Of a stretch of 35,380 nucleotides of DNA, positions 5,023 through 35,380 are shown one piece after another. Under the pieces are notes generated by a model. The model did no database searches and was not told the DNA's origin. It worked only from the letters and a program-made list of their open reading frames with translations. Positions within the stretch are counted from its first letter, which is position 1, and each line of letters opens with the position of its first letter. The stretch is taken from the IMG/VR virus record IMGVR_UViG_3300050015_000940, positions 1 to 35,380 of that record. One strand, 5' to 3'. The DNA is from a virus. Position numbers and translations under genes: made by a program.

Positions 5023-5499
5023 TTAAAAGGATTTTTTACGAAATTTTCTTTTTGTGGTTCCAGCCCTTCGAGCAATAGTATTGACGGCTTTCTCTCCAGC
5101 TGAGGAACCGGAATTAGCCGAAACTATTTTACCATTTTCTTTAGTAATGTAGGCACGCCAGGATTCGGGGTTAGAATAGTATCCATTATCTTTGATGCTT
5201 AAATACAAGTCATAATCTAATTTGAATGTTCTCCAATCATTTTCTTCTTGGTAATATTTAAATCCGAATATTGCTTCTAAAGGCAAATATTTAGTATCAA
5301 ATGGGATCTCTTCAAAATTAATGGCGGACATTATTTGATTGAAGCGTTCTTTTGCTTCGTCTCTTTCTTCTGTAGTTCCAAGTTTAAAATAATTGGTATC
5401 AAAATTTTGAACCCAGGATTTTATACCTATATCTAAGGTATCAAGAGGTTTTCCGCCTCTTTCAAAATTAGCGACTTCAAATACTTTTAAAGCTTTCAT
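5023..5499 (-). CDS. Hypothetical protein with N-terminal 'FERGG-PLDTLDIG' tag
   Basis: Unrecognised 158-residue protein. Its first 25 residues, MKALKVFEVANFERGG then KPLDTLDIG, closely match the start of the protein at 17687 (MRALKVYEAIDFTREGDPL) and an internal piece of the protein at 18170. The middle is rich in aromatic and acidic residues (FKYYQEENDWRTFKLDYDLY). The end is a basic tail (ARRAGTTKRKFRKKSF). The gap to the upstream gene is 2 bases and to the downstream RuvC-like gene 12 bases, so it belongs to a minus-strand operon. The tag suggests sorting to a common place such as the virion, but this is inference. Confidence 0.7.
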   Translation of the reverse strand: MKALKVFEVANFERGGKPLDTLDIGIKSWVQNFDTNYFKLGTTEERDEAKERFNQIMSAINFEEIPFDTKYLPLEAIFGFKYYQEENDWRTFKLDYDLYLSIKDNGYYSNPESWRAYITKENGKIVSANSGSSAGEKAVNTIARRAGTTKRKFRKKSF

Positions 5500-5501
5500 T
5501 C

Positions 5502-6332
5502 TTATTTATAGCAATAGCCTGGAAGAGAACCACCATAAACTCGGATAAGTTCTTTGAGTTCTGCTTCTGGAACATAGTCTTTTAGTGTCCAGTATCCTCT
5601 ACCGGATATAGGCCTCCAGGTTTGATCATTAATAAACTGTCTATAGTCTTCAAGTTTTCCGTTGGGTTTGTCACCCGAAGTGAATATAACTTTAAAATGT
5701 CCCGAATTATCTTTCCATATTTCAGCAGTATGTCCTTTGTAATCATCATGAACATTGAAATAATCGCATTCACCCGTTCCGAAGTTAACTCTTCCAATAG
5801 GAGATATGGAAGCTTGACGAAGATTTTTTCCACCAATTTCTGTTGCACCAGCTTCGGAGAATCTTCCGATTCCCAAACCTTTAAATATTTCGGAGTTTCC
5901 TCTTGAAAATCCACCTCCACCACTTGAAGCGGGGAAACCAGCAGGTTTTCTTTCAGCATTTGCACCGGCAACTCTTTCAGATGGAAGAAGATATTGAGTT
6001 TTATGTTTTCTTTCTAATTTTTCTCCTTTTCCGACAGGCCCTACTACTGGAGCAAGAACATCGGCAGAAGCTTTTGATCTAACTCCTGAACCGCCAAGTT
6101 CAACAGCACGATCATGGAAAATAGGGGTAATATCGTTACCTGGTCCAAATACCTGTTCAGCAGCTTCAGCTCTTGCCTGAGCTTTACCAGCATCCTGAAT
6201 GATTTTAGCCTGGGTTGTAGCTAATGATAACTCTTTAGCATGATCTCCATTAGCTTTGGTCTTTATATCTTGCATACGGACCACATCCTTTACACCGATG
6301 GCTTCGTTTATTGATTCTGCAACTAGTTTCAT
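5502..6332 (-). CDS. Hypothetical protein with glycine-rich linker, possible virion protein
   Basis: Unrecognised 276-residue protein. It starts MKLVAESINEAIG, similar to the neighbouring MKRLVTESLEEF and to T4 capsid-targeting peptides. Residues about 25-65 are alanine-rich and helical. A Gly/Ser-rich linker near 135-150 (PASSGGGGFSRGN) separates them from a C-terminal domain of about 100 residues with aromatic-rich beta-like strands (YFNVHDDYKGHTAEIW, GHFKVIFTSG, RGYWTLKDYV). Its ATG overlaps the stop of the GIY-YIG gene in an ATGA arrangement, consistent with insertion of that endonuclease between two genes of an older operon. Confidence 0.7.
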   Translation of the reverse strand: MKLVAESINEAIGVKDVVRMQDIKTKANGDHAKELSLATTQAKIIQDAGKAQARAEAAEQVFGPGNDITPIFHDRAVELGGSGVRSKASADVLAPVVGPVGKGEKLERKHKTQYLLPSERVAGANAERKPAGFPASSGGGGFSRGNSEIFKGLGIGRFSEAGATEIGGKNLRQASISPIGRVNFGTGECDYFNVHDDYKGHTAEIWKDNSGHFKVIFTSGDKPNGKLEDYRQFINDQTWRPISGRGYWTLKDYVPEAELKELIRVYGGSLPGYCYK

Positions 6333-6922
6333 ATTTCTGATTTTATTTTCTTATTCCAAGGTGTTTTCCCATACATAGGGTTACTTGACCCAATTTTAGA
6401 AATTGCCATTTTATCTTTTGTATTCTGGGATCTGATTACGCCTAAACAAAAATCATTTCCTTTATTTTTTAATCCAATTTTATCTCGGGTTTCTTTAGTA
6501 ACCTCTCTTCCTAATCCACTTAATCCAATATGTTCTTTCCAACTTTCGGATAAGACTCTTCCTTCTTGAGTCTTGCTAAGTTTTTCTTTGGATTCTTCTC
6601 TCCAAGTTAATCCTAATACTCCATCACCTCCTTTTGTTCCGTTATATCCATTAGTATAAGATTGGGATTCATTTATCCAATAAATTTCTCTTTTGGATAA
6701 AATTTCTCTTAAATCTTTTTTTGATTCGGATTTAAACTCTTCAATTATATCCCATTGGATACTATCCCATCCATATTTTCTAATGGCATTATAAAATTTA
6801 TTTTGGGTTCCTGCATTTGCATGACATTTATGAGATCTTTTTCGATTCTCAAAGTCTATAGTAAACCCAAAATATTTTTTATTTGAAGGTAAAGTTGCGC
6901 AATATATTATTCCTGTATACAT
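6329..6922 (-). CDS. GIY-YIG homing endonuclease with NUMOD3 motifs
   Basis: A 197-residue protein starting at ATG 6920-6922, one base after the stop of the upstream gene. A further in-frame start at 6949 would overlap that gene and is less likely. The catalytic module is at the N-terminus: MYTGIIYCATLPSNKKYFGF supplies the GIY...YFG strands, RSHKCHANAG holds the usual Arg, FYNAIRKYGWDSIQW follows, and the catalytic Glu is in SKREIYWINE. The C-terminal half has NUMOD3-like repeats (EESKEKLSKTQEG, KETRDKIGLKNKG, QNTKDKMAISKIG). It resembles the bacterial/phage SegA-type enzymes more than the YVY-type enzymes at 3640 and 19923. Both ends abut or overlap phage genes. Confidence 0.87.
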   Translation of the reverse strand: MYTGIIYCATLPSNKKYFGFTIDFENRKRSHKCHANAGTQNKFYNAIRKYGWDSIQWDIIEEFKSESKKDLREILSKREIYWINESQSYTNGYNGTKGGDGVLGLTWREESKEKLSKTQEGRVLSESWKEHIGLSGLGREVTKETRDKIGLKNKGNDFCLGVIRSQNTKDKMAISKIGSSNPMYGKTPWNKKIKSEI

Positions 6923-6923
6923 T

Positions 6924-7187
6924 TTACATGAATGCACCCGAAGGAACATTTGGTCCTGTATTATTTTTTCTATTTATTTCGATCTCATCAAGCTTATTGT
7001 TGATATATTTCCAGATCTCTTCCTTGTTCTCAACAACGTTTGATCCTAAGGAATGTTTATCTCTTAAAAGATCAAAACAAAGATCGCCAAGTTCTCCATA
7101 CTTGCGAAGCATAACCACCGGTTCTACTGATTCATTTATTGAATTTCCTCTGAATTCTTCTAATGATTCGGTTACTAATCTTTTCAT
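6924..7187 (-). CDS. Small hypothetical protein with capsid-targeting-like N-terminus
   Basis: Unrecognised 87-residue protein that opens the minus-strand cluster 7187-4384. The N-terminus MKRLVTESLEEFRGNSINES has the pattern of an amphipathic peptide ending in acidic residues, like MKLVAESINE in the gene at 5502. The rest is charged and helical (LRKYGELGDLCFDLLRDKH, EEIWKYINNKLDEIEI). The tail NTGPNVPSGAF looks flexible. Real gene likely from its position; function unknown. Confidence 0.6.
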   Translation of the reverse strand: MKRLVTESLEEFRGNSINESVEPVVMLRKYGELGDLCFDLLRDKHSLGSNVVENKEEIWKYINNKLDEIEINRKNNTGPNVPSGAFM

Positions 7188-7218
7188 ATTGTATTTAGAT
7201 TATTTAGATATATATTAA

Positions 7219-7273
7219 AAGGGGTTAGACTCTGGTAAAGTCAATCAGAAAGTTTTAAACTGACTGTCCCCTT
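7219..7273. repeat. Nested inverted repeat in divergent intergenic region
   Basis: Between the divergent starts at 7187 and 7306 lies a foldable stretch. AAGGGG (7219-7224) pairs with CCCCTT (7268-7273). Inside it AGTCA (7239-7243) pairs with TGACT (7261-7265), and GACT (7228-7231) offers an alternative partner for AGTC. It may be an operator, a leader-RNA structure for the endonuclease gene at 7306, or a terminator remnant. It has no clear U-tract on either side. Confidence 0.35.
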
Positions 7274-7305
7274 ATTATATATTATTCAAATAAAAAAGTT
7301 TAATC

Positions 7306-8250
7306 ATGAAAGAATTTAGTAAAACGGAAGCTGATCTTTTCATTTGTGAAGAGTGTAATTCGCTTTTTGCTAGTAAAAGAGGATTAGCTATGCATATTAA
7401 AAATCAGCATAATTCCAAATTATATTATGATAAATGGATTATGGATTTTAATGAAGATAAATGTAAAATTTGCAAAAATCAAACAGAATTTATCTCAATT
7501 CAAAAAGGATATAAAAAATGTTGTTCAAAAATTTGTTCTAATAAATATACCCATTTAAAAACGGAGGAATCTTTTATAAAGAAATATAGTAAACATCCAA
7601 AACAAACAGATGAAATAAAAAATAAATGTATAGAAAATCATTTAAAAGAATATGGGGTTAAAAATCCCTATCAAAGAAAAGAAATTAAAGACAAAATAAA
7701 ACAGACAAAATTTAAAAAGCACGGGGATGAAAATTATACAAATCGAAAAAAAGCAAAAGAAACTTGCATAAAATTATATGGGGTAGAGAATCCTTTTCAA
7801 AATAAAGAAATATTTAGTAAATGTCAAAAAACTTCATTATTAAAATATGGGGTTGAATATGCGAATCAAAATATAAATATTTATAATAAAGGACTTAAAA
7901 CTCGATTTTTAATCCATAAATTTAAAGATACAAATCTATGGTATCAAGGAACTTATGAATTGGATTTTCTAAATAAATATTATGATAAATTTAGTGATAT
8001 TCAAAGAGGGCCGTCAATTCGATATATTTATAATGGAAAGAATAAAGTCTATCATCCCGATTTTTATATTTCATCTTTAAATTTGATTGTTGAAATAAAG
8101 AGTACTTGGATTTTGAATAAGGATATAGAAATAGAAGAAAAGAAAAAAGCCACTATTTCTAATGGCTTTAAATATCTTATGATACTAGATAAAAATTATC
8201 AGAATTTTTTATCCCTTGCCCAAACTAATTCCAATTGCGGTTGTTACTAA
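7306..8250 (+). CDS. Zinc-finger PD-(D/E)XK homing endonuclease
   Basis: A 314-residue protein. Residues about 14-36 form a C2H2-like finger (CEECNSLF...MHIKNQH), followed by a four-Cys cluster (CKICKN...CCSKICSNKY). The middle carries tandem copies of a short basic motif: YGVKNPYQRKE, YGVENPFQNKE and YGVEYANQN. The C-terminal nuclease domain has YQGTYELDFL, then YHPDFYI...LIVEIKS, which is the PD-x(n)-E-x-K active site, and a lysine-rich helix. The gene at 9457 has the same order, and the gene cut by the left edge shares the YELDFL block. It is plus-strand and ends inside the last codons of the minus-strand gene at 8209 (42-base convergent overlap). Zinc and nuclease assignments are from motifs. 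Confidence 0.85.
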   Translation: MKEFSKTEADLFICEECNSLFASKRGLAMHIKNQHNSKLYYDKWIMDFNEDKCKICKNQTEFISIQKGYKKCCSKICSNKYTHLKTEESFIKKYSKHPKQTDEIKNKCIENHLKEYGVKNPYQRKEIKDKIKQTKFKKHGDENYTNRKKAKETCIKLYGVENPFQNKEIFSKCQKTSLLKYGVEYANQNINIYNKGLKTRFLIHKFKDTNLWYQGTYELDFLNKYYDKFSDIQRGPSIRYIYNGKNKVYHPDFYISSLNLIVEIKSTWILNKDIEIEEKKKATISNGFKYLMILDKNYQNFLSLAQTNSNCGCY

Positions 8251-20990: not shown

Positions 20991-22064
20991 TTACTTTTTA
21001 TATCCTGTGTGTAATTCAGCGATAATTTTTTCATGACTTTCATAACCAATCAACTCAAAATCCTGAATGGTTAAGCTGAGAATATCATCAAGAGTTTTAA
21101 GCTCTTTATTTATTTTTAATTCAGGAAGAGGAAGGGGTTCTCTCTGGATTTGTTCTTTTGCTTTTTCTACATGGTCAACATATAAATGTGTATCCCCGCC
21201 AATCCAAGTAGATATTCCAGGAATCATGTTCGAAACCTGTGCAACGATCATAAGAAGCAAAGACATTGAAGCAATATTGAAAGGAACTCCTAAAATGGTA
21301 TCGCAAGATCTCTGGTACATGTTAAGATCTAGATAGAATTTAGGAATCTCGCATTCATCCAAAATTTTCTTAATGGTTTCAATGCTATCAAAGTTAATCA
21401 TCATTCCATTATTGCGTTCCCTGTAGATATTGTGTCTCCGGTCGAGAGTGAGAGGGCGTACAATAAATTGATACAGCAAATGGCAAGGGGGTAGAGCCAT
21501 TTTTTTAAAATCTGCTGCATTCCAGGCATTAATAATATGGTATCTGCTATAGGGATTGTCCTTTAATCCATCAATAACATTTTTAACTTGGTCTACACCA
21601 TTTTGATTTCTCCATTGGTACCCATAAACTTTGCCGAGATCCCCCAGCTGGTAACCAACCCATGTACTTGAAAGAACGACAGGATCATTCCAATCAATAT
21701 CTTTTGTGTATACGGTTAGATTTCCCTCTTTTATTTTTTCAATAAATTCATCCATGGTATAGGTTTTCATACCAGGTTTGTCAAAATGCTTCTGATACCA
21801 ACGATATGCATCGCCATCCCAGATATGAACATTATTATCTACAAGGTATTTTATATTAGTCTCCCCGCGTAAGAACCAGAGAAGTTCATGAATAATGGTC
21901 TTCCATGCCATTTTTTTAGTTGTAAGTAATGGAAAGCCATCAGCTAAATTCATTTTAATAACTCCATGAGAAATTCCTATGGTATTAGGCATATTTGCTC
22001 TGCCACTTTCTTTCTCAACCCCATTATCTATAATATTTTGAAGGAGGTCTAGATATTGTTTCAT
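20991..22064 (-). CDS. thyA: Thymidylate synthase
   Basis: A 357-residue ThyA-type enzyme that methylates dUMP to dTMP with methylene-tetrahydrofolate, supplying thymidine nucleotides for phage DNA. Landmarks are MKQYLDLLQ at the start (as in E. coli), FPLLTTKKMAWKTIIHELLW, LGKVYGYQWRN, the catalytic Cys in LPPCHLLYQF, and YQRSCDTILGVPFNIAS with DTHLYVDH near the end. The start is ATG 22062-22064, which matches the family N-terminus; a further in-frame ATG at 22101-22103 adds 13 hydrophobic residues with no counterpart. Between LYQF and LNMYQRS there are about 40 extra residues (DRRHNIYRERNNGMMINF...IPKFYLDL) not present in the short E. coli form. It is divergent from the gene at 22187. Confidence 0.95.
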   Translation of the reverse strand: MKQYLDLLQNIIDNGVEKESGRANMPNTIGISHGVIKMNLADGFPLLTTKKMAWKTIIHELLWFLRGETNIKYLVDNNVHIWDGDAYRWYQKHFDKPGMKTYTMDEFIEKIKEGNLTVYTKDIDWNDPVVLSSTWVGYQLGDLGKVYGYQWRNQNGVDQVKNVIDGLKDNPYSRYHIINAWNAADFKKMALPPCHLLYQFIVRPLTLDRRHNIYRERNNGMMINFDSIETIKKILDECEIPKFYLDLNMYQRSCDTILGVPFNIASMSLLLMIVAQVSNMIPGISTWIGGDTHLYVDHVEKAKEQIQREPLPLPELKINKELKTLDDILSLTIQDFELIGYESHEKIIAELHTGYKK

Positions 22065-22152
22065 AAAGATAATTTTATTAGTTATAGCCAAAAAAATGTT
22101 CATAGTTTTAAAAAATAAATGTGAAAATATTTTTTTACTTGGGAAGTATTTC

Positions 22153-32277: not shown

Positions 32278-34302
32278 TTATCGTCTACCTCCCCACATTG
32301 TCGAGCCCGAACTAGAACCAGAATACCTTGGTTTGTTAGCATTCTGATATATTTTTTGTAATTGAGCCATCTCATTTCCAGAAACATCATCATTATTATA
32401 GAGATTATGGAAAGAATCATCGCTTAATTCTTCCGGGGTTTCTATAGGAGTTTTAAGAAGCTCAGAAATATATCTTTTTATTGGGGAATCATCTAAATCC
32501 TGAAGAAAGTCATATAGCCAATCACCATATTCGGGTTCTTCATAAAGTCTTGCAGTATTAATACATGCCATTGCAGCATCGTCATGTTTTGCTATACCCT
32601 TCCAAGAAAGTTTTACCTTACCAAAAGCTCCAAATTCTCCAGTAGTTTTTGAATCATTCGGAATTAGGCATTTAGTTTCGACTAATTTTCTTGCAAGTTT
32701 GCAGAAGAAGTCTTTATCTTGTTTTTGGCGGAATCCTGCTTTTCTTCTTGGGGGTTTTTCTCCTGGAACTGGAGCCGTGTGATATGAATGCATAACGCAT
32801 CCTTCAAAATAACCATCATGATCTGCAAATTTATCAAGAAACCTCTTACCATTAAAGTTCATTTCTGTAACTAATTTGCAGAAATCCCCGCCAAATTGGT
32901 CAAATACAAGTGCCTTGTTAACTTGAGCCATAACTTCCTCATCTCCATAATTGTCAAAGAATATTCCAACCTGTCTCATTCGAAACATATTTTGGATTTT
33001 TCTTTCATCTTTTCTGAGTTTACGAAGTTTTACCATAGATTTAGGTTCTACTTTGTAAATAGCGGTAACATTAAAGTCATTATCCTTCTTTTCCTCATCC
33101 TCATCTTTTCCATCGGCAATATCATTGGATAAAACAAAACGATCCCTTTTATCAAAACTATTATTTGGATCAAATCCGGGATGCCAAAGTAATTTGTCTC
33201 GATAAAGATCTTCAGACAAAGCGGATTTTTCTAATGGATGATATTTATATTTTTTCTCATTCTTTTTAAGCCATCTCATTTGATTTGGTGTTAAAAGAAG
33301 ATTACTTTTACGGTCAAATAAAAGTTCATATTCCTGAGCAAATTCTTCTTCCCCAAAGTTTGCTTTGATTTCTTCCATCCAAGCATCATCGTGGCCAGGA
33401 ACTTCCCAATAGTCGACTCTCTTAAATTTAAAAGTGTTTTTTCCTGTATTAGCTTTATCCCATATTTCATAGAATAAGTTATCCATGCCGTCGGGCGTAG
33501 ATGAGATAATACATTGGGAAACTAATGAAGAGGATAAGGTAGGATAAACAGATCTCCAGAATGATTTAACAAGTTTCTGGTTGATGTGAGCAAACTCATC
33601 GATGTATAATACGTGGATGGTAAAACCGATAGATGCTGTTTTGGTGGTAGCTTGAGAAGTAAGCATACATCCATTATCGAGACGAAGACCTAAAGCCCCG
33701 ATGGATTTTATACCAGGCTTCATAAAGAATGGTAGTCCTCGGAATACATCAACAACCTTTGCTACAATTTCTGTAGTAGTGGCCTGTTTGTTAGCAAGAA
33801 TAAGTAAGTTTCTATCTGTGTGAAAGCAAAGATACCAAGCAAAGAAAGCTGAAATAGTTGTAGTATTGTGGGACAAAATCCCGTTTGAATAAAATCGGTG
33901 TTCTGGTGAATTAACCGTTACATCAAACATTGAGATTTTTTGTGAATATTTTTTTATATTAATAACTCTTGATAATCCCCTTTTTGTTTGGATACAATTC
34001 CCTACTTTTAAATTCTTAATAAATACCTCATTCATTAATTTATTAAAAACTATGTGATTATCTGCCCCCTCTAGATACATGCCATTTTCTAAATCCACCC
34101 TCCATAGAGTATAAGGCTGGGTTTTATGGATTTGAGAAATGGGTTTAAAACCCATATCAGTTTCAATTTCTAAATTCTCTATAGATATGCTTTCAATAAT
34201 TTTCTTACTATTATCATTTTCATCTAAATTTAAATGACGATATTCCCATTTTTCGATAAGTTGAATTAAAAATAAGATAAGATATTTAAGGGTTTTTTTC
34301 AT
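32278..34302 (-). CDS. C-terminal half of a split large terminase, fused to a C-intein
   Basis: A 674-residue product. Residues 1-146 are an intein C-fragment ending in GILSHN. Residues 147-674 are the terminase from just after the P-loop lysine: TTTISAFFAWYLCFHTDRN aligns with T4 gp17 after SRQLGK. Walker B is VLYIDEFAHI (D235, E236), the coupling motif SSTPDG is at 267-272, and nuclease acids are in LSNDIADG (D394) and KHDDAAM (D574, D575). The N-terminal half with Walker A is absent and must lie beyond the right edge. A TAG stop lies four codons upstream of the ATG, so this is a separate gene and not a readthrough. The ATG overlaps the end of the Vsr-like endonuclease gene by 17 bases. Active terminase would need protein trans-splicing. 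Confidence 0.9.
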   Translation of the reverse strand: MKKTLKYLILFLIQLIEKWEYRHLNLDENDNSKKIIESISIENLEIETDMGFKPISQIHKTQPYTLWRVDLENGMYLEGADNHIVFNKLMNEVFIKNLKVGNCIQTKRGLSRVINIKKYSQKISMFDVTVNSPEHRFYSNGILSHNTTTISAFFAWYLCFHTDRNLLILANKQATTTEIVAKVVDVFRGLPFFMKPGIKSIGALGLRLDNGCMLTSQATTKTASIGFTIHVLYIDEFAHINQKLVKSFWRSVYPTLSSSLVSQCIISSTPDGMDNLFYEIWDKANTGKNTFKFKRVDYWEVPGHDDAWMEEIKANFGEEEFAQEYELLFDRKSNLLLTPNQMRWLKKNEKKYKYHPLEKSALSEDLYRDKLLWHPGFDPNNSFDKRDRFVLSNDIADGKDEDEEKKDNDFNVTAIYKVEPKSMVKLRKLRKDERKIQNMFRMRQVGIFFDNYGDEEVMAQVNKALVFDQFGGDFCKLVTEMNFNGKRFLDKFADHDGYFEGCVMHSYHTAPVPGEKPPRRKAGFRQKQDKDFFCKLARKLVETKCLIPNDSKTTGEFGAFGKVKLSWKGIAKHDDAAMACINTARLYEEPEYGDWLYDFLQDLDDSPIKRYISELLKTPIETPEELSDDSFHNLYNNDDVSGNEMAQLQKIYQNANKPRYSGSSSGSTMWGGRR
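33865..34302 (-). other. Split-intein C-fragment (146 aa) inserted in terminase Walker A
   Basis: This segment of the terminase gene contains Hint-domain blocks. The block B region is LENGMYLEGADNHIVF, with His83. Block F is ISMFDVTVNSPEHRFYSN. Block G is GILSHN, with His145 and the splicing Asn146. The first extein residue is Thr147. The nucleophilic Cys1 and block A are not here, so they must be in a short N-fragment encoded elsewhere. An atypical split near the N-terminus, with a small N-piece and a C-piece of over 120 residues, is known from the environmental T4-type terminase intein VidaL T4Lh-1. Confidence 0.85.
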
Positions 34303-35347
34303 AAATAAAATCTATACATTTTTTTACAGTATTTTCCGGATTTTTCTTATATTCATTTTCCCAAATATGCAAAATCTCATATCCGGCATTTTTCAATATG
34401 TAATCCCTATCGTATTCTCTTTTTTGGTTTTCGGGGGTATTTCTATGCCAGTAAACCCCATCGAATTCAATTATCTTATTTTTATCTAATATAATAAAAT
34501 CCGGGCATAAAACTTTATTACTTAAAATTAATCTATATTCATTGTTTATATCATTATCCACACAAGTTGCATAAAAAATTTGTTTAAAATCTTTTTTAAT
34601 TTTAAGGTCTAGTGTTTTAAATAATATTTGAGAAATATTTGAATAATTTTGTTTTTTATAATTTTTTAACCATTTTTCCTGTCTCCCTCTCCATCTTTCT
34701 AACCCTTTTTCCTCCCCGTATTTTTCTATACATTTTTTTAACGAAAAAGTTGTTTGCCTTTCTTTTAACTTTTCTTTTGCTTCTTCTTCAGAAAATCCTC
34801 TTTTTAAATAATATTCTAAAGTGGTATCAAATTCTCTTTCGCTTAATGACCCTTTTAAAAATTTTTTATAATCATTTTCGGATAAATTTCTTTTTTTATA
34901 AAATTCTTTGCTAAATGGGGATAATTCTTTTCTTTTTTGTTCAGACATATTATTTTTATGGACAGGATTTTTTTCTCCTTTTACCATTTCAGAAAACATT
35001 TTTCTATATTTCTCTTCCTTCATGTGTTTACCCGAATTAACAGATATATTTTTTATATCATTTTCTGTACAAACAGGGGAATCGGGAAATTCTTTCCTAT
35101 AATCTTTTATAGTTTTATCAGGATGAGAAAATTTTATGTGTTGGCCGTATATTCTCGTAACTTTTTGACCGCACCATTTGCATATGATATAGTCTTTTCC
35201 TTCTATACCAGATAAATATTTTTCCCTCTTTTTATCTGAATAAGTTTTGCTGTATTTGTCTTTGCATTTTTGAGAACACATTTTAACTCTTCCATCTGAT
35301 GTAGAAAATTCTTTGTTACAAATAATACATTTTTTTATAGTTTCCAT
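34286..35347 (-). CDS. Vsr-like (EDxHD) homing endonuclease in the terminase split
   Basis: A 353-residue protein. N-terminal zinc-binding pieces are CIICNKEFSTSDGRVKMCSQKC (two Cys pairs) and CKWCGQKV...HIKFSH. The middle is basic and helical with NUMOD-like stretches (SEQKRKELSPFSKEFYKKR, LKERQTTFSLKKCIEKYG). The last 77 residues form a Vsr-type nuclease: LCPDFIILDKNKIIEFDGVY-WH, then KREYDRDYILKNAGYEILHI and WENEY, which matches the E-D-x-H-D pattern of the I-Bth0305I-like family. It starts at ATG 35345-35347 and ends inside the first codons of the terminase C-half. A nuclease of this family between the halves of a split-intein gene is the 'fractured gene' arrangement. Confidence 0.88.
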   Translation of the reverse strand: METIKKCIICNKEFSTSDGRVKMCSQKCKDKYSKTYSDKKREKYLSGIEGKDYIICKWCGQKVTRIYGQHIKFSHPDKTIKDYRKEFPDSPVCTENDIKNISVNSGKHMKEEKYRKMFSEMVKGEKNPVHKNNMSEQKRKELSPFSKEFYKKRNLSENDYKKFLKGSLSEREFDTTLEYYLKRGFSEEEAKEKLKERQTTFSLKKCIEKYGEEKGLERWRGRQEKWLKNYKKQNYSNISQILFKTLDLKIKKDFKQIFYATCVDNDINNEYRLILSNKVLCPDFIILDKNKIIEFDGVYWHRNTPENQKREYDRDYILKNAGYEILHIWENEYKKNPENTVKKCIDFIYEKNP

Positions 35348-35380
35348 AATATATATTTTATAGCTTTATGACAATGTATT

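Follow-up and report, generated by a model that had tools for sequence, protein, structure and literature searches.

The downstream part of a probable fractured terminase gene, with a split-intein fragment at Walker A and a candidate homing endonuclease

The terL locus and its relatives

The sequence analysed here, called the window, is a virus record of 35,380 bases taken at its full length (IMG/VR record IMGVR_UViG_3300050015_000940). At its end lie two minus-strand genes which are very probably the downstream part of a fractured gene for the terminase large subunit (TerL), with a trans-splicing split intein and a homing endonuclease. The gene at 32278–34302 encodes a protein of 674 residues that starts with an intein C-fragment ending in SHN and continues with T-T-T-I-S-A-F-F and the remaining TerL. 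The C-fragment (33865–34302, 146 residues) carries block B (A80 D81 x H83), block F and the C-terminal S-H-N. Its head, residues 1–36 (34195–34302), comprises the putative C-side of a severed α-helix and a linker, with I13, E17 and K34. The TerL extein (32278–33864, 528 residues plus stop) begins with Thr+1, the first residue after the Walker A lysine. Pfam Terminase_6N (PF03237) matches residues 147–329 of the 674-residue protein (E-value (E) 6.4e-13) and PHROG 2, terminase large subunit, matches residues 115–581 (E 8.9e-28). General intein models are marginal on the window sequence (PF14890, E 0.019, below its cut-off; TIGR01443, E 0.064). A hidden Markov model (HMM) of the C-intein, built from 24 relatives with the window left out, gave the window 235.6 bits; the highest score among 1000 shuffles was 10.4.

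The second gene (34286–35347, 353 residues) encodes a free-standing putative homing endonuclease, assigned to the EDxHD/Vsr type by HMM, fold and invariant residues. Its end overlaps the start of the C-half gene by 17 nucleotides (nt; 34286–34302). An endonuclease HMM, again with the window left out, gave the window 417 bits and the best of 1000 shuffles −0.6. Since both window scores are far above those of the shuffles, neither the intein match nor the endonuclease match is due to chance. Upstream of the endonuclease ATG the contig continues for just 33 nt, which places the TerL N-half outside the window. The last 15 nt (35366–35380, minus strand) hold four codons and a stop, N-T-L-S-stop; the N-inteins of three relatives (L004, L042 and L048 in our numbering of loci) likewise end in -LS-stop, and these 15 nt could perhaps be the tail of the upstream gene for the TerL N-half and N-intein, cut by the contig end.

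Related loci were collected from IMG/VR, 30 with the 674-residue protein as query and 31 with the endonuclease. The order N-half, endonuclease, C-half is complete in relatives such as L004, L010, L018, L034, L035, L051 and L061. Wherever a relative with split TerL had enough upstream sequence, a gene for the TerL N-terminus was present, mostly 87–140 residues long and ending in R-Q-x-G-K (R-Q-T-A-K in L017 and L018); in the relatives' N-half genes a Cys and the N-intein follow directly after R-Q-x-G-K. In relatives the host gene is thus divided between two reading frames, and one intein fragment is fused to each; the window shows the C-half. Uninterrupted TerL was found in 18 distinct loci, 17 of which read RQ(T/I)GKTTT at the junction position; the remaining one, Caulobacter phage Cr30, reads RQSAKSTT.

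With the intact TerL of L006 as query, the C-half alone was matched in the window (query residues 121–645). In related records an intact TerL query found TerL as halves in 10/10, and no intact TerL was found in these ten, which are mostly fragments of 12–100 kb, none rated at least 90% complete, so that a copy could lie outside them. A match to the TerL ATPase region occurs elsewhere in the two largest, LR756500 (462 kb) and the record of L042 (276 kb). The one in LR756500 is a 272-residue reading frame with motifs altered by eye and without a Pfam match; this record also has one 41-residue TerL match, which is not an intact TerL. The locus in LR756500 (L061, 3956–6749) has a C-intein that ends SSQ|T, not SHN|T, and a second TerL-like ATPase frame follows it.

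A preliminary description of this DNA, made from the letters alone, had read the downstream gene as an intein C-fragment running into terminase after the P-loop lysine, directly preceded and overlapped by a Vsr-like endonuclease gene, and both readings are borne out by PF03237, PHROG 2 and the HMM scores for the first, and by the overlap and the fold and profile matches given below for the second. It had set against itself an intact terminase elsewhere, which was not encountered in the searches just described. The upstream gene it expected, a TerL N-terminus up to GK with an N-intein, is present in relatives but lies outside the window, and its wording of a 'full example' goes too far for a window that holds two of the three parts.

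Intein fold, splicing residues and the added helix

A profile of 44 family members matched the inteins gp41-1 (E 2.8e-12), VidaL (E 3.3e-12) and Cat (E 2.8e-9). The AlphaFold model of the unsplit intein of L077 (40 rows; mean predicted local distance difference test score (pLDDT) 89.9, predicted template modelling score (pTM) 0.73, residues 1–40 less certain) shows an intein core, with fold matches that cover mainly residues 79–194; the top Z-score was 15.4 for VidaL, then 14.5 for NpuDnaB. Ahead of the core, the model contains a single helix, residues 37–68. By sequence alignment, the split forms are broken near L077 residue 50, inside this helix. The N-fragments of split forms commonly end like L-T-x-L-E-K-I-K-x-K-L-Y, and the C-fragments begin like M-K-x-x-L-K-x-x-I-L-F-L-I-x-x-I-E-K-x-E-Y. 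A helical hairpin, that is two helices meeting at a turn, had first been read from the sequence; it was dropped because the L077 model shows one continuous helix.

In the C-fragment head, I13, E17 and K34 were invariant in 72/72 aligned sequences (3 of them unsplit), a set from which short or helix-less types and some others were omitted. The mean majority frequency was 0.68 for residues 12–24 and 0.71 for residues 25–36, whereas the intein body had 0.60 and residues 1–11 had 0.48. Residues 12–36 are therefore more conserved than the intein body, which is unexpected for a mere linker. We infer that the two helix parts carried by the N- and C-fragments dock on each other. With slightly less than even confidence, we propose that the family forms a structural subclass of split inteins, in which the break lies inside an added α-helix whose halves dock, at the Walker A site of TerL, and which passes in a cycle from unsplit to fractured forms, through endonuclease decay, to possible re-fusion.

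The N-fragments are 38–83 residues long (median 54.5, 60 rows) and the C-fragments, taken from the first fitting ATG, 104–153 residues (median 146, 67 rows), the window's fragment having 146. With the Cys1 end in the N-fragment and block B in the C-fragment, the break is an atypical split near the N-terminal end of the intein. The splicing residues were counted in the distinct rows that have a C-intein, 88 in all, including 8 unsplit ones. The C-intein ended in HN in 85/88, in SN in 2/88 and in SQ in 1/88, and block B was kept in 86/88. Residue +1 was Thr in 79/88, as it is in the window, and Ser in 9/88. Residue 1 was Cys in 65 of the 68 readable N-fragments and Ser in 1; it was read as Thr in 2, readings that may stem from a misplaced search pattern.

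The ratio of nonsynonymous to synonymous substitution rates (dN/dS) was 0.08–0.20 for the N-intein (8 pairs) and 0.06–0.35 for the C-intein body (11 pairs). In the pair L079/L081, where L079 is without an endonuclease, the values were 0.08 for the N-intein and 0.16 for the C-body. These comparisons among the relatives demonstrate purifying selection on both intein fragments at the level of sequence. For the head helix, dN/dS ranged from 0.02 to 0.59 in the nine pairs that yielded a value, and so was not always low.

The endonuclease, the stages of the family and mobility

Library matches of the window endonuclease are C-terminal: MTES_1575 (E 2.3e-8, below its curated cut-off) and DUF559 (E 7.1e-7, above its cut-off). 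The match to Vsr itself is weak (TIGR00632, E 0.0069). With a profile of the family the best match was I-Bth0305I (3r3p; E 0.0047), then Vsr (E 0.11), profile positions 282–345 aligning to the former and 278–341 to the latter; the single sequence searched against PDB sequences found no endonuclease. The endonuclease model (mean pLDDT 87.4, pTM 0.40) gave fold matches mainly over residues 233–353. No Foldseek match reached E ≤ 0.001. For the C-terminal domain, 3r3p ranked first (E 0.0056), with a Z-score of 11.1 over 96 residues in the range 236–353; a Neisseria endonuclease-like protein (Z 11.0) and Vsr (1cw0; Z 10.3, residues 233–352) were also near. The alignment ranges on 3r3p and 1cw0 (VIA-align) put the catalytic domain at about residues 233–353 (34289–34651). 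D283, E294, G297 and H301, which we take to be the catalytic set of the EDxHD/Vsr type, are invariant in 34/34 family members and present in the window's full-length frame. A Cys/His zinc-finger-like stretch at about residues 52–76 (35120–35194), positioned from the conserved C56 and H75, is a candidate DNA-binding module. The Pfam ROS_MUCR zinc finger is matched by 10/34 family members, with the window's member below threshold, and a Ros/MucR-type finger is a plausible DNA-binding part of the enzyme.

The endonuclease and C-half genes overlap in 33 of the 45 measurable rows, which suggests that their translation is coupled. In L044, L048 and L050, extra genes stand between the two, 0.6–3.4 kb apart; the one in L044 (2440–3372) has a HEFSH motif, zinc-peptidase-like by eye, and no Pfam match. 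An endonuclease of the window's family lies reversed inside the break in L030 (672–1808) and L105 (4144–5370). In Caulobacter phage Cr30 (L066, 2986–5716), an endonuclease relative immediately precedes an intact TerL (RQSAKST) that has no intein.

A scan with 25 C-inteins confirmed at least 533 stretches in IMG/VR, of which the best 80 of 533 were examined, and 11 stretches in bacterial genome contigs. The collection comprised 157 sources. Eleven repeat the contig of the window or of another locus and five were unclassed (L056, L060, L064, L065, L156); the other 141 loci gave 106 distinct rows after removal of near-identical ones. Both halves were present in 62 rows, an unsplit intein in 8 and an intact TerL without intein in 18, and another 18 had no classed N-half upstream; these proportions depend on the way the loci were collected. 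Among the 62 rows with both halves, the break held a forward endonuclease above threshold in 39, a fragment or weak match in 8 (one of which, L149, scored as a remnant, looks like a full endonuclease on inspection), a reversed endonuclease in 2, other content in 6 and none in 7. In L085, L087 and L088, the N-half continues into a stretch of about 20 residues that resembles the end of an endonuclease, as if the remainder of the enzyme had been deleted and its last ~20 codons left on the N-half.

For the trees, eight rows with endonuclease sequence and no classed N-half were set by hand as 'split with endonuclease' (the window, L019, L037, L071, L090, L118, L142 and L144; L071 and L090 show the gene edge alone). 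The TerL tree, with the intein left out, held 99 rows; seven more were omitted, and L153, L058, L152, L034, L150, L107 and others had long branches. The window fell in a starred set of 12 rows, 10 of them intact, and beside six intact rows (Shimodaira–Hasegawa-like approximate likelihood ratio test value 92, node not starred). The TerL most similar to that of the window is the intact L006, 79% identical over 320 columns. At least six changes are needed to explain the presence and absence of the intein on this tree. The C-intein tree held 76 rows, with short or helix-less types and some others omitted. Fourteen of its 69 branches were starred; among the starred sets that comprise at most half of the rows, none contained the window. 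On this tree the label for endonuclease presence needed 23 changes, against a mean of 24.7 after shuffling, and was hardly clustered. Unsplit members stood beside split ones (L077/L082, L107/L102, L147/L149), with at least five changes between split and unsplit on the C-intein tree and six on the TerL tree; neither tree indicates a direction. Because of these neighbours, split forms may possibly have been re-fused.

The clearest case of movement is the pair L128/L142. Their endonucleases are 99.9% identical in nucleotides over 264 codons and their C-inteins 97.1%, while the TerL sequence that follows is 72.7% identical; the 1200 nt leading up to the junction contain 12 mismatches, and the 300 nt that follow it contain 66. 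A near-identical cassette next to divergent TerL means that the cassette moves between TerL alleles. Weaker contrasts of the same kind were seen in L096/L103 and L047/L091. Of 25 pairs with similar C-inteins, 20 had a higher nucleotide identity in the C-intein than in the 250 TerL codons that follow and 2 had a lower one; in the other 3, which are identical pairs, the two values were equal. For the family, mobility of the cassette can be taken as established.

The window's own cassette is likely an old arrival. Its nearest C-intein in the tree is just 69% identical, so it did not arrive recently. Such an age would also fit an endonuclease that has ceased to drive homing and an element inherited vertically in the window's lineage, as would the frequency of decay and loss in the family, with no endonuclease in 7/62 and up to 8/62 fragments or weak matches. 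We consider this unlikely, although it is the alternative that survives best: the window's endonuclease frame is full length and keeps the family's invariant residues, and the window's TerL branches among intact TerLs.

The endonuclease family also occurs apart from the helix: L057 and L058 have short, helix-less inteins at the Walker A site, and in L059 (579–4965) the window's endonuclease family accompanies a short split intein that interrupts the P-loop of an ATPase of RecF/SMC-like (gp46-like) type; the split ATPase of L059 adjoins a calcineurin-like phosphoesterase gene (gp47-like). TerL is apparently interrupted three times in L058 (2881–8789): first by the Walker A split with its endonuclease, then by an intein that starts SFN|C, with an HNH/NUMOD3 reading frame (5029–5820) in another frame, and finally by a break FE|S...SHN|CEFLGS with its own DUF559-type endonuclease (6454–7611). 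In Vibrio phage Va1 (L064, 1149–4566) the split of TerL lies elsewhere, at NFE|C ... HN|CNFLG, and one reading frame joins the endonuclease to the C-intein and the C-part of TerL. Kuja, BX-1 and VPALA (L062, L063, L067), sequenced phages of Vibrio, have an unsplit intein at the Walker A site, with no match to the endonuclease HMM and, by eye, no helix like that of L077; the protein is annotated as terminase in Kuja and VPALA and as hypothetical protein in BX-1. The C-halves of L054 (9457–12825) and L135 (5971–9336) carry a further unsplit intein at DD|C in the TerL nuclease part, LAGLIDADG-like by eye in both and matched by PF14890 in L135 (E 1.5e-15). In a Nitratidesulfovibrio phage (L065, 200–4744), a DNA polymerase B (PF00136, E 1.3e-26) is seemingly intein-split, with an endonuclease relative between the halves.

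In the window, the gene next downstream of the TerL C-half encodes a tail sheath protein (PF17482; PHROG 34521), so the phage is probably contractile-tailed. A thymidylate synthase gene lies at 20994–22103 on the minus strand (PHROG 160, E 3.4e-100). The preliminary description's Bacteroidota-type host is unproven. Hints toward it are Lak/Prevotella, Sphingomonas and Tenacibaculum phages among the TerL matches listed, but Vibrio phages are among them too, and a C-intein relative at 69% identity is on a 9.4 kb contig of a Bacteroidales metagenome-assembled genome; together these are faint indications of a host.

Proposed assembly of the broken terminase and known systems

Most likely, the half-proteins are stitched together by a two-piece self-splicing intein. 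The upstream gene beyond the contig end would encode a TerL N-terminus ending in RQxGK, then a Cys-initial N-intein of about 50–60 residues. The two half-proteins would be translated separately and then associate, the intein fragments docking partly via the two parts of the added helix. By analogy, we infer the chemistry of a class 1 intein: Cys1 would start the reaction, a branched intermediate would form on Thr+1, and cyclisation of Asn146 would complete it. Splicing would join GK to TTT and restore Walker A, and ATP hydrolysis and DNA packaging by TerL would be possible only after this step. The presumed homing enzyme would cut intein-free terL near the Walker A codons, and the cassette would be copied into intact terL alleles during mixed infections.

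Several observations weigh against this account of a docked, trans-splicing TerL. The penultimate His of the C-intein is absent in L085 and L087 (SN; the two inteins are identical) and in L061 (SQ), where the terminal Asn is absent as well. When the window's own N-half was sought in IMG/VR by exact search, using 28 bases from the end of the contig, there were 0 matches. The sole intein model is that of one unsplit relative, L077. Finally, the synonymous substitution rate (dS) was lower in the C-intein body than in TerL-C in 11/11 pairs taken from the 25 mentioned above, a biased comparison because the pairs were picked for similar inteins, which favours this outcome.

The missing His residues would fit halves that act as separate subunits, or an intein that merely cleaves, with intein fragments as remnants and no trans-splicing. 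This is very improbable: the splicing residues are kept in nearly all rows, both fragments are under purifying selection, also in the L079/L081 pair, and the break parts the Walker A lysine from its Thr. Removal of the interruption at the RNA level, by a group I or II intron with an endonuclease, has a precedent, as the ICP1 terL is spliced as RNA according to the available text of PMC10448857, and introns often house phage endonucleases. It is hardly credible here, where in-frame intein fragments flank the break, the unsplit relatives read through as one protein including the intein, and the loci L004, L010, L018, L034 and L061 yielded no Rfam match at the gathering score (an undescribed intron could escape such a search). 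A break produced by assembly or binning of different phages can practically be dismissed: L002, identical over both genes, does stop at about the same place upstream of the endonuclease as the window, but the order N-half, endonuclease, C-half recurs in 39 distinct rows from many metagenomes and in the 462 kb record LR756500.

The gene of the DNA-packaging motor is broken in two by a mobile element, and relatives range from unbroken through invaded to decayed at the same break. TerL is essential, and in phages like these it will appear truncated or missing; it is often used for phage classification, according to the part of PMC12350094 available. The family is a natural series of split-intein life stages, which makes intein splitting and rejoining directly testable. 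With what looks like a docking helix of their own, the fragments could become protein-ligation tools, and the endonucleases are candidate enzymes that recognise the highly conserved coding site of Walker A.

Fractured genes with split inteins and EDxHD endonucleases were reportedly described by Dassa et al. in 2009. The present locus shares with them the two half-genes, the split intein and the free-standing endonuclease between, here of the EDxHD type, and it differs in the host gene terL, the Walker A site and the atypical split with a short N-fragment. In the text available, the fractured gene AceL NrdHF has 98+48 residues and an endonuclease of the GIY-YIG type (PMC7891396), and AceL-TerL and GOS-TerL have 25+104 and 37+115 residues, with Cys+1 (PMC11766414). 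AceL-TerL, GOS-TerL and Cat resemble the present family in the TerL host (by name) and in a short N-fragment with a long C-fragment. In contrast to AceL-TerL and GOS-TerL, the fragments of this family are about 50–60 and 146 residues long, residue +1 is Thr (Ser in 9/88) and the helix is severed. The AceL/GOS-TerL junction is presumably not Walker A but a CEF(LG) site, like the third break of L058 and that of Va1.

The mycobacteriophage TerL inteins lie in the ATPase domain near functional motifs, and in the text available five tested ones spliced and two tested had endonuclease activity (PMC5050341). The ATPase-domain site near a functional motif is thus common to them and the present family; they were tested as single-gene constructs, and the term 'split intein' is absent from the text available of that paper. 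I-Bth0305I (3r3p; PMC3943268), the best profile and fold match, which extends over the C-terminal domain of the window's enzyme alone, was deposited as a mobile intron protein, whereas the window's enzyme is free-standing in a split gene. In the open-access literature, as far as its text was available, no description was found of a split TerL intein at the Walker A site with a severed helix. The nearest solved fold is VidaL (6vgv), which matches the L077 model with a Foldseek E of 3.1e-8 and a Z-score of 15.4 over 108 residues (root-mean-square deviation 2.2, 27% identity); Cat (6dsl) matches with a Z-score of 14.2. The VidaL alignment starts at L077 residue 85 and leaves the helix 37–68 uncovered. 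Judged by its sequence, the locus has the layout of a fractured gene, with an intein split in the atypical manner of AceL-TerL, GOS-TerL and VidaL.

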